Below, piece after piece: positions 6,742-62,792 of a stretch of DNA of 64,000 bases. This stretch comes from Microbacterium sp. cx-55 (GTDB taxonomy: Bacteria > Actinomycetota > Actinomycetes > Actinomycetales > Microbacteriaceae), in the NCBI RefSeq assembly GCF_021117345.1, contig NZ_CP088261.1, positions 2,294,001-2,358,000 of the forward strand, in the 5' to 3' direction. The position numbers and the translations under genes were made by a program. Within the stretch, counting starts at the first letter, position 1, and each line of letters begins with the position of its first letter. The notes beneath the pieces were generated by a model. The model was not told where the DNA came from. It ran no database searches and saw only the letters and a list, made by a program, of their open reading frames with translations.

Positions 6742-9285
6742 TCAGGCCGCGTCGGCGAGCACGCTCACCGACGCCACGACCAGCTGACCGCCGACCGCAT
6801 CCACCCGCACCGCGCCCCCGTCGCCGAGTTCGCCGCTCACGAGCAGGTCGGCGATGCGGTCATCGATCTGACGCTGGATGAGGCGGCGGAGCGGGCGCGC
6901 GCCGTACTCGGGCTCGTACCCGCGGTCGGCGAGCCAATCCACCGCCGACTCCGACACCTCGAACCCGATCTCGCGGGCTCCCAGTCGACCCTCGGTCGTG
7001 GTCAGCATGAGCGACACGATCTCGCGGAGCTGCGGGCGATCGAGCTTCCGGAACAGCACGATGTCGTCGATGCGGTTGAGGAACTCGGGCCGCATGGCCT
7101 CCCGCACCTTCGCCATGACGCGATCACGCAGGTCGCCCTCGGAACCGAACCCGGTGGCGCCGCCGCCGTCGGCGATGAAGCCGATGGCCCCCGACCGCGA
7201 CGCGAGGAATTCGGCACCGATGTTCGAGGTCATCACGATGACCGTGTTGCGGAAGTCCACCGTGCGCCCCTGGCCGTCGGTCAGGCGCCCGTCGTCCAAG
7301 ACCTGCAGCAGCAGGTTGAACACATCCGGGTGCGCCTTTTCGATCTCATCGAAGAGCACGACGGCGTAGGGATTCCGACGCACGCGTTCGGTCAGCTGTC
7401 CGGCCTCGTCGTATCCGACGTATCCGGGAGGAGCACCGACGAGCCGCGATACCGTGTGGCGCTCGCCGAACTCGCTCATGTCGAAGCGGATCACCGCGTT
7501 CTCATCGTCGAACAGCGACTGCGCGAGGGTCTTGGCGAGCTCGGTCTTCCCCACGCCGGTGGGGCCGAGGAACAGGAACGACCCGATCGGGCGGTGCGGA
7601 TCGCCCATCCCGGTGCGATTGCGCCGCACCGATGTCGCGACGGCCGTGACGGCCGCATCCTGGCCGATGACGCGGTTGTGCAGCTCCTGCTCGAGAGTCG
7701 CGAGACGCTCGCGCTCGGACTCGGTGATCCGGTTCACGGGGATGCCGGTCGCCCGGCTGATGACCGCCGCGATCTGCGGTTCGTCGACGACCGCATCCGG
7801 GCGCTCGGACTGAACGCTCGTGGCCTCGTCGATCCGGCTGCGAACGCGCGTCATCTCATCTCGCAGGCGCGACGCCTCCTCGTACCGTTCGGCGGCGACG
7901 GCAGAGTTCTTCTCCGCCTCGAGCACCGCGAACTCCGCCATCAGCGCGGCCGTGTCGACCCCCGCGCCGAGGCGCAGGCGCAGACGCGCGCCGGCCTGGT
8001 CGATCAGGTCGATGGCCTTGTCGGGCAGCACGCGATCGGTGACGTAGCGGTCGCTGAGTTCGACGGCCGCGGCGAGCGCGGCATCCGTGTACGTGACACG
8101 GTGGTGCTCTTCGTACGCCGGCCGCAGGCCCTTCAGGATCTCCACGGCGTCCACGATCGACGGCTCACCGACCCGCACCGGCTGGAAGCGGCGTTCGAGC
8201 GCCGAGTCCTTCTCGATGACGCGGTACTCCTTGAGCGTCGTGGCGCCGATCAGGTGCAGGTCGCCGCGCGCGAGGCGCGGCTTGAGGATGTTGCCCGCGT
8301 CCATCGCGCCGTCGCCACCGGCGCCCGCACCGACGACGGTGTGCACCTCGTCGATGAACACGATGACGTCGCCGCGGAGGTCCGCGATCTCGTCCATCGT
8401 CTTGGTCAGGCGCTCTTCGAAGTCGCCGCGGTACCGCGCGCCGGAGAGCATGGCCGCGAGGTCGAGCGAGATGACCCGCTTTCCGCGCAGTTGCTCGGGC
8501 ACGTCGTCGGCGACGATCGCGCGGGCGAGGCCCTCGACGATCGCGGTCTTGCCGACGCCCGCTTCACCGATCAGCACGGGGTTGTTCTTCGTGCGACGGC
8601 TGAGGATTTCCACGGTCTGCTCGATCTCGTCGGCCCGGCCGATCACCGGGTCGAGCTCCCCCGCGGCGGCGCGCGCCGTCAGGTCGTCGCCGTACGTGTC
8701 GAGCATCGTGGCGGCGCCGTCACGTGCCTCGGTCGCGTCCGTTCCCGGCGCGACGGGCTCCCGGAGTCCCTCGGTGAGGGCTTCGGCCGTCACGCCGGCG
8801 TCGGCGAGCACCCGGCCGGCCGGGCTGTCCTGCGCGAGCACGAGCGCGAAGAAGAGGTGCTCGGGATCGATGTAGGTCGACCCCGAGGAGCGTGCGACCT
8901 GGAAGGCGTGGAACAGCGCGCGTTGCACGGATGTGGTCAGCACGGCCGTGTCGACATCGGCCGCCGGCCCCTCCTGCGGGAGGCGCTCTTCGATCGAACG
9001 CTCGATCGCGTCCGGGTCGGAACCGACGCGAGCGACGGCCTCGCGGGCAGACGCGTGCTGGACGATGGCGTACAGAACATGCAGCACGTCGAGTTCGTGC
9101 TGACCGCGCGCGAGCGCGAAGCGTCCGGCGTCCTGAAGGATCTGCTGCGTACCCATGCTGAGGAACCGACTGAGGTCGATCGACCGCGCCGCGCGAGCCT
9201 GCTCGCCGCGCAGGTAGCGGCTGAGGAACTCGTCGAATGCGCTCTGGCCGTCGGTGTCGGACGGGCCCGTGACGTCTTCGGGCAT
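6742..9285 (-). CDS. ClpC-like AAA+ unfoldase (Clp protease ATP-binding subunit)
   Basis: 847 residues: N-terminal Clp repeat domain (about 25-165), first AAA+ module with Walker A GEAGVGKT and Walker [11 protein letters not shown], a short middle region with UVR-like [15 protein letters not shown], second AAA+ module with [12 protein letters not shown] and [13 protein letters not shown], and a D2-small domain. The short middle domain is ClpC-like rather than ClpB-like, and an IGF tripeptide (SGAIGFIAD) in D2 matches the loop that docks ClpP in ClpX/ClpC relatives. The start is set by a perfect AGGAGG before ATG 9285; the frame stays open to 10062 but that part is not coding. No clpP or adaptor is adjacent. 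A HspR-type operator lies upstream, so heat-shock control is likely. Confidence 0.9.
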
Positions 9286-12818: not shown

Positions 12819-12894
12819 CATGTCCCACTTTTTGCCGCAATAGCGGTGCCAGAGCGGCAAAAGTTGGGACATGCTGCGCGAATAGTGGGACATG
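12819..12894. repeat. Long imperfect palindrome plus extra word copy (element A)
   Basis: CATGTCCCACTTTTTGCCGC (12819-12838) pairs with GCGGCAAAAGTTGGGACATG (12854-12873), 18 or more of 20 positions, around a 15-base loop; a further TAGTGGGACATG copy lies at 12883-12894. It sits between convergent genes and could terminate transcription from both sides. Layout matches four other intergenic elements in the window. Confidence 0.85.
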
Positions 12895-12933: not shown

Positions 12934-13035
12934 GGCCGGTGCCGGGCCAGGGGCCGGCGCCGGACCAGGGGCGGCGCCGGACCAGGGCCGGTGCCGGACC
13001 AGAGGCGGCGCCGGACCGGGGCGGGGCCGGACCGG
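12934..13035. repeat. G/C minisatellite, six 16-18 base units
   Basis: Units begin at 12934, 12952, 12970, 12986, 13004 and 13020 and follow GGC(C)GG(T/C)GCCGGACCAGG. The array ends just before the stop of the acetyl-CoA synthetase gene. Repeated G runs allow quadruplex formation. Confidence 0.9.
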
Positions 13036-13048
13036 CGCGCCGCCGGGA

Positions 13049-15210: not shown

Positions 15211-15297
15211 GCGTCGCGAGATTCGGAGATGCGACGAGATTCGGAGGGTTTTCGCGCGAAGCCTCCGAATCCGGTGACATCTCCGAATCCCGTGACG
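15211..15297. repeat. Four-copy palindromic element upstream of acsA (element E)
   Basis: Word ATTCGGAG occurs forward at 15221 and 15239 and inverted (CTCCGAAT) at 15263 and 15281; pitch is 18 bases on both sides. Outer copies share ATTCGGAGATG and inner copies share ATTCGGAGG, and all four are preceded by a GTC(A/G)C-like block in their own orientation. The core is GTTTTCGCGCGAAGC. It lies between divergent genes. Confidence 0.9.
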
Positions 15298-58057: not shown

Positions 58058-58125
58058 GTTCGGGGCGTAATCGTACGTTCGGGGCGCGAAAATCGAGCCC
58101 CAAACGCGGGAACGTGCCCCAAACC
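58058..58125. repeat. Paired-word palindromic element (element B)
   Basis: CGTTCGGGGC at 58058 and 58076, then inverted GCCCCAAACG at 58097 and GCCCCAAACC at 58116; pitch 18 and 19. The core between inner copies is GCGAAAATCGA. It fills the gap between tRNA-Arg and the monooxygenase stop. Confidence 0.85.
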
Positions 58126-58164
58126 CAAGAAACACAGCAGCCCGAGCAACGAACAACAAAGACC

Positions 58165-60752: not shown

Positions 60753-60844
60753 GTTCGGGGCCGGGCTACGGGCCCGTTCGGGGCACGAACCTGCGGTTGG
60801 GGCATGAAAATTGCGCCCCGACCGCAGTTTTGTGCCCCAAACCC
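60753..60844. repeat. Paired-word palindromic element (element C)
   Basis: Forward words GTTCGGGGC at 60753 and 60776 and GGTTGGGGC at 60795; core ATGAAAATTGC; inverted GCCCCGACC at 60815 and GTGCCCCAAACCC at 60832. The inner pair forms 13-base arms (60791-60803 and 60815-60827) with one mismatch. Lies between convergent gene ends and may terminate both. Confidence 0.9.
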
Positions 60845-62699: not shown

Positions 62700-62792
62700 G
62701 GCGCCCGTTTCCTGTCGTGGCGCCAGATTCCTGTCGCGGCGCCCGTTTCCTGTCGTGGCGCCAGAAAATCGTGGCGCCGGAACAGGGAACTG
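62700..62792. repeat. Tandem 19-base array with inverted end (element D)
   Basis: GGCGCC starts at 62700, 62719, 62738, 62757 and 62773. The first three units are 19 bases and follow GGCGCC(C/A)G(T/A)TTCCTGTCG; the fourth has the core AGAAAATCG; the last, with GGAACAGG, is the inverted complement of the unit. Located upstream of poxB in a gap of 477 bases. Confidence 0.9.

Follow-up and report, generated by a model that had tools for sequence, protein, structure and literature searches.

In the accessible parts of PMC3733652, the spread of bacterial repetitive extragenic palindromic (REP) sequences is tied to HUH transposases alone, and some REP classes are given without a known enzyme. Two further kinds of protein bear on the present case. 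The antitoxins AbiEi and Rv2827c, according to sections of PMC7319586, bind sets of 23-bp inverted repeats with a separate binding event for each repeat, and the homing endonuclease I-Bth0305I is described in part of PMC3943268 as dimerising on a target of nearly 60 bp. Here we deal with five intergenic repeat arrays, elements A to E, in a 64,000-nucleotide stretch of Microbacterium sp. cx-55 (the window, G000:C1:2294001-2358000, where G000 is the own genome, one contig of 3.27 Mb). The five elements are real, yet they do not make up a single family: A, B/C and E are separate dispersed families of palindromic arrays. Each family is probably the recognition site, dispersed in trans, of its own AbiEi-Vsr-type nuclease, as comparisons of words and proteins across the genus suggest.

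Array families and their nuclease genes

A preliminary description, made from the letters of the window, had given the five elements a single layout consisting of a repeated word, an A4/T4 core and the word inverted, and all five stretches do match it at their coordinates. The architecture is kept while the words differ, as had been said, and each word marks a separate family. The core was rejected as the unifying feature, being frequent in A copies only: AAAA or TTTT occurs in 12 of 13 A copies (within the arms), one of 12 E copies and three of 10 B copies. The near identity of the words in B and C was borne out, and C is a further copy of the B family.

Copies were sought by an exact-word scan for an 8-mer occurring twice at a pitch of 16-24 bases with its inverse within 60 bases. 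The window holds four such clusters, A and E among them, against three in total over 10 dinucleotide shuffles, and 464 kb of the own genome (the window plus 20 sampled stretches) holds 22, part of them in coding sequence, against six when each stretch was shuffled once. C and D are found at 7-mers, where each shuffle gives 1-5 clusters, and B is missed because its inverse copies differ by one base; BLAST recovers B as a dispersed family whose matches start at 58058 and stop at about 58124-58127. Further copies, whose absence would have refuted the preliminary description, do exist in the genome, with 13 places for A, 12 for E and at least 10 for B/C (nine by BLAST plus element C; B copy numbers are lower bounds, because 10 candidate places per genome were scored). 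D has two places, the other copy being partial (G000:C1:856149-856211). Arrays of the D, A and B families lie together with the pB gene, introduced below, inside 11 kb (L122:1150-11993, or G000:C1:856149-866992), and a further array of the own genome (L026:11636-11732) repeats CGAACGGCCGGCGTGACATGA with an inverted copy around CCCTTTTCGGG.

Some copies are paired, about 1.1 kb apart, and genes lie between them. The gene for pA (308 residues, G000:C1:1083083-1084009) sits between A copies at 1082896 and 1084046, and that for pB (337 residues, G000:C1:865828-866838) between B copies at 865712 and 866924. An E pair encloses a GNAT gene, and one copy of that pair is about 35 bases off the 3' end of the gene for pE (305 residues, G000:C1:1802802-1803719). 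All three genes lie outside the window, within which there is neither a tblastn match to them nor a DUF559 place.

By Pfam and PADLOC, pB is AbiEi-type, pE is AbiEi-type (weakly so in Pfam) with DUF559, and pA combines a weak AbiEi match with DUF559/MTES_1575; an NCBIfam search gave no match. MTES_1575 is matched by 27 of 28 pA homologues and AbiEi_4 by 15 of 27 pB homologues. A Vsr-like nuclease fold was found with conserved acidic residues, which are candidate active sites, and Foldseek pairs pA with 3r3p at a probability of 0.99, a support by probability and not by E-value. From these models the proteins are best read as predicted fusions in which a Vsr/EDxHD-type nuclease domain is joined to an AbiEi-type fold, itself made up of a winged helix and a nucleotidyltransferase-like domain.

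Of the nine DUF559 genes in the own genome, four show clear arrays in the 1.5 kb examined around the domain match, a reach that is shorter when taken from the gene start. These are pA, pE and two genes with other words, AGCGAGGAGAT... and AGATGAGGG..., both of which recur elsewhere (L029, L014). Inside 1.4 kb at L014:10305-11694, E arrays occur twice, together with two word pairs belonging to the family of the L272 nuclease. Another own DUF559/MTES_1575 gene has, about 430 bases upstream, a GC-rich repeat with units in both direct and inverted order (L268:260-339), which may be a further array family.

Two other enzyme candidates were set aside. DUF222/HNH genes of the 13E12 type, with 12 matches in the genome, have arrays within 300 bases in 0 of 12 cases. 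A Y1/RAYT transposase is absent from this genome, as PF01797 (HUH Y1 transposase) has no match there at E <= 0.001, with control matches in five of 14 genomes.

Word and nuclease subfamily across species

Of 198 congeneric genomes, 154 have a match to pB and 179 a match to pA at E <= 1e-20. The loci compared are the best 30 of each search, the own one included, and no random draw. Arrays of exact B words occur at 22 of the 29 non-own pB loci (18 on both sides) and at none of 29 pA loci; those of exact A words occur at 20 of the 29 non-own pA loci (seven on both sides) and at none of 29 pB loci. With one mismatch allowed, A arrays are present at 24 of 30 pA loci (own included), 18 of them two-sided and 11 of these mirrored, and at 0 of 30 pB loci. 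For B, one mismatch makes the word unspecific in this GC-rich DNA, with "arrays" at 20 of 30 pA loci, and that form of the word was set aside.

A scan that presupposes no word agrees. With 8-mers and a limit of 300 bases, arrays are found at 24 of 29 pB, 16 of 29 pA and four of nine pE genes, and at 0 of 12 DUF222 and 0 of 24 tRNA/luciferase controls, the latter without L055, L058 and L061 (fetched for their B array) and the short L040 and L052. With 7-mers the counts are 28 of 29, 17 of 29 and eight of nine, against 0 of 12 and two of 24. The nine pE-type loci come from seven Microbacterium genomes, one Leucobacter metagenome-assembled genome (MAG) and one Actinomycetota MAG, and their words differ from the own E word. 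Arm sequence tracks the protein among 25 pA loci (rho 0.31, p 0.0005).

It is improbable that the arrays are instead non-autonomous elements, akin to miniature inverted-repeat transposable elements, of an unseen transposable element, with the nuclease lying by chance inside or beside old copies. The copies are palindromic and sharply bounded, pA arrays are often mirrored in the fashion of terminal inverted repeats, and sites are not common to congeners, all of which such elements would explain. Against this, a given nuclease subfamily is flanked, across many species, by one and the same word at a fixed locus, and different subfamilies have different words; a passenger gene would not be expected to show such a pattern. 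Target duplications, too, were not seen by eye.

The nuclease genes themselves stay in place. pfkA adjoins all 29 pA homologues and ptrB 27 of them; mtlR, the short name assigned here to the PRD/EIIA regulator, adjoins 25 of 29 pB homologues, with PMM or GNAT beside three more and none of these at one locus. Where the identity of pA is about 57%, its two neighbours reach about 92% and 84%, and the ratio of nonsynonymous to synonymous change (dN/dS) in four pairs is 0.12, 0.12, 0.15 and 0.20; the nuclease is evolving fast but under purifying selection. No movement of the genes was observed. Carriage by phage or plasmid was rejected, as pB is absent from the phages searched, the pA and pB alignments are both without match in viral contigs, and plasmid matches, which bear the names DUF559 or AbiEi-family antitoxin, are just 30-36% identical and come from Tsukamurella and Arthrobacter.

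The arrays, by comparison, vary. Of 198 genomes, 31 contain the A pattern, at most 28 times each (reversed control 0 in all), and the B pattern, which is built on GGGGCG and gives too low a count for the own genome (3), reaches 124 matches per genome (reversed control at most 3); one array may count twice, because both strands are covered. A arrays are found in 24 of 41 genomes with a close pA (E <= 1e-85) against seven of 157 others, and at least five B matches in 29 of 39 genomes with a close pB (E <= 2e-80) against 15 of 159 others, in counts made by hand from listings and put to a Fisher test that ignores kinship, with cut-offs set after seeing the data. G167, G126, G206 and others have at least 10 B-pattern matches and no close pB, and are possible relics of gene loss.

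Variants are genome-specific. A set of 72 A arrays was picked by hand from nine genomes, passing over tandem neighbours, a part of the single copies and genomes poor in copies; for 64% of the set the most similar array comes from the same genome, where 11% is expected and 2000 shuffles reach at most 28%; the arrays therefore change in concert within a genome. In G192, G199 and G008, near-identical arrays form tandem clusters.

Placement of the copies and the window elements

Gap classes were assigned to 36 copies (13 A, 12 E, 10 B and one D; copies flanking pA and pB included, and two E copies in a single gap), with a rough gene finder that itself missed pA. Free of overlap with predicted genes are 33 of the 36, of which 16 lie in convergent, 13 in tandem and four in divergent gaps, where the 161 background gaps that measure 100 bases or more divide into 30, 75 and 56. 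Convergent gaps are thus preferred (p 0.0006) and divergent ones under-used (p 0.012) by the clear copies, and the four divergent placements uphold the earlier remark that the elements are more than terminators.

The convergent preference (16 of 33 against 30 of 161) and the long complementary arms would suit arrays that act mainly at the RNA level, as hairpins or terminators, and that owe their spread to ordinary duplication and gene conversion. This we regard as very improbable: it leaves the word specificity of the nuclease subfamilies unexplained, divergent placements occur, and A arms pair equally within an element (0.729) and among elements of one genome (0.728). The structured RNAs offered by the preliminary description accordingly gain no direct support. 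Selection on hairpins at the level of the element was rejected, since shuffling A arrays within a genome equals the real pairs, and pairing looks like a genome-level property. For B spacers, pairing is 0.58 within elements and 0.447 between loci.

Placement also bears on the unlikely, though more serious, proposal of AbiEi-type repressors with the arrays as their operators, the flanking arrays serving autoregulation and the solo arrays a regulon, with another job for the nuclease domain. Two 23-bp inverted repeats are bound by AbiEi, according to the available part of PMC7319586, and Rv2827c recognises two pairs, which lie in its own promoter; the models here match both folds, and unit size and inverted arrangement are similar to those sites. 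However, arrays also lie 3' of the gene (exact words on both sides at 18 of 29 pB loci), solo copies are commoner than expected in convergent gaps and rarer in divergent ones, copy number runs from none to tens among congeners, and near-identical arrays form the tandem clusters noted above. Operators and nuclease targets have the binding step in common; the gap preference, the 3' arrays and the copy-number swings speak against operators as the whole story.

Single sites were compared with other genomes. The B array is absent from the eight best congeneric luciferase-like loci (L034-L041) matching one side of element B, taken by match with orthology unverified, and from 10 tRNA-Arg loci (L042, L043, L045-L050, L053, L054) matching its other side. 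In one orthologous gap, a B array is present in G087 and G084 and in none of G028 (91% identical flanks), G072, G075 and G123. The gap holds another repeat, GTTGAGCG...CGCTCAACGACC with GCGTTTCGTCTCG, in G028 (L290, about 8790-9032), G072 (L293) and G075 (L292). A further short repeat (L284:10157-10263) has matches of 84-97% identity at several places in G123, G084 and G028.

Aligned by eye, the array copies span about 68-92 bases with 3-5 units each, and the elements (Table 1) are better described as sets of units of 18-21 bases, inverted with respect to each other, than by a word with an A/T core. Element C has one unit more (60753-60778) than the regular array, which starts at 60779, and the arms of element E are 39 nt long and 82% complementary. 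Adjoining element A, at 12955-13038 of the window, are tandem units of the GGCGCCGGACCAGGG type.

Table 1. The five array elements, in window positions
Element	Position	Strand	Description
A	12819..12894	-	TGTCCCA/TGGGACA family; one inverted and two direct units; convergent gap
E	15211..15297	+	GATTCGGA(G) family; two direct and two inverted units; divergent gap
B	58058..58125		T(T/C)GGGGC family; two plus two units; flanked by tRNA-Arg and a luciferase-like gene
C	60753..60844		Second B-family copy in the window; convergent gap
D	62700..62792	+	GGCGCC...TTTCCTGTC array; 19-base units

Proposed mechanism and known systems

In the mechanism that we propose, with its conjectured steps of binding, cutting and copying, every unit of 18-21 bases would serve as a single binding site, and 3-5 units over 68-92 bases would be the expected target of such a fusion protein. 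The nuclease gene is sedentary, and selection keeps it at one chromosomal place, typically between two arrays; more arrays would spread in trans through intergenic DNA. The flanking arrays, the dispersal and the concerted change suggest that cutting or nicking near arrays may drive their copying elsewhere and their homogenisation; the simplest route would be a cut or nick at or near an array followed by copying repair, and the array set would thereby track lineage-specific changes in the enzyme's target. The protein arrays and the small mobile hairpins of the preliminary description are both compatible with the new evidence.

Several results weigh against recognition and spread by a dedicated nuclease. 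For pA, Foldseek returns nothing at E <= 0.001 (best 1zel at 3.9e-3), and no nuclease was found for D or for the L026 family. Of the nine own DUF559 genes, four are without arrays and one (L268) is doubtful; an exact-word array is missing at nine of 29 pA and seven of 29 pB homologues; and a Mantel test of word against protein divergence gives no significant trend for the 11 loci of pE type (rho 0.24, p 0.09). Besides the blindness to kinship and the late cut-offs of the co-occurrence tests, seven genomes have A arrays and 15 have B arrays with no close nuclease, G167 lacking even a pB match at E <= 1e-20, so that gene loss is needed. The one orthologous gap examined offers no clean empty site, the three genomes named having another repeat there, and inspection of copies by eye revealed no target duplications.

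The chances are about even that Actinobacteria possess a REP-like system run by a sedentary, word-specific AbiEi-Vsr nuclease that keeps and spreads its binding-site arrays, with several co-evolving enzyme-word pairs per genome. It looks like a second, independent route by which a bacterium may fill its genome with small palindromes. No paper linking DUF559/AbiEi-nuclease genes with dispersed palindromes was found in the literature covered, from which subscription journals are mostly outside. If true, an unrelated second class of enzyme with natural enzyme-word pairs would mean that such systems arose more than once, matched protein-DNA pairs would be at hand from which to learn the rules of DNA recognition by AbiEi-type domains, and an explanation would be available for a class of intergenic repeats together with proteins annotated merely as DUF559 or AbiEi-family antitoxin.

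Unlike the AbiEi and Rv2827c antitoxins of type IV toxin-antitoxin systems, the proteins here have an extra nuclease domain, and their arrays are on both sides and dispersed. There is also no room for a toxin gene beside pA, which fills the space between its arrays, with phosphofructokinase and prolyl oligopeptidase as neighbours; pB is neighboured by the PRD/EIIA regulator and a GNAT acetyltransferase, and no toxin-model search was made. In contrast to the EDxHD homing endonuclease I-Bth0305I and Vsr, the gene is sedentary with a target-like array on either side, the host genome contains multiple copies of the supposed target and the DNA-binding part is AbiEi-like. CGTC-tagged REPs, in the parts of PMC3733652 consulted, are likewise dispersed palindromes without a RAYT, in other named phyla and not Actinobacteria, a likeness by description; seen by eye, the copies here have no GTAG foot, and many E copies start with CGTC and finish with GACG.

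The elements had been called unlike classic REP families, which holds for their sequence, and the closest analogy, REP/RAYT (TnpA-REP, REPtrons), was overlooked because the enzyme genes lie outside the window. As set out in portions of PMC3733652 and PMC8266576, there too small intergenic palindromes prefer convergent and tandem gaps, the enzyme gene is flanked by the same palindromes, and enzyme and palindrome diverge together. The differences are that the enzyme is a putative AbiEi-Vsr-type fusion here and an HUH Y1 transposase there, that REP palindromes measure 20-40 bases where these arrays measure about 68-92 with 3-5 units, and that several families with separate enzymes share one genome.
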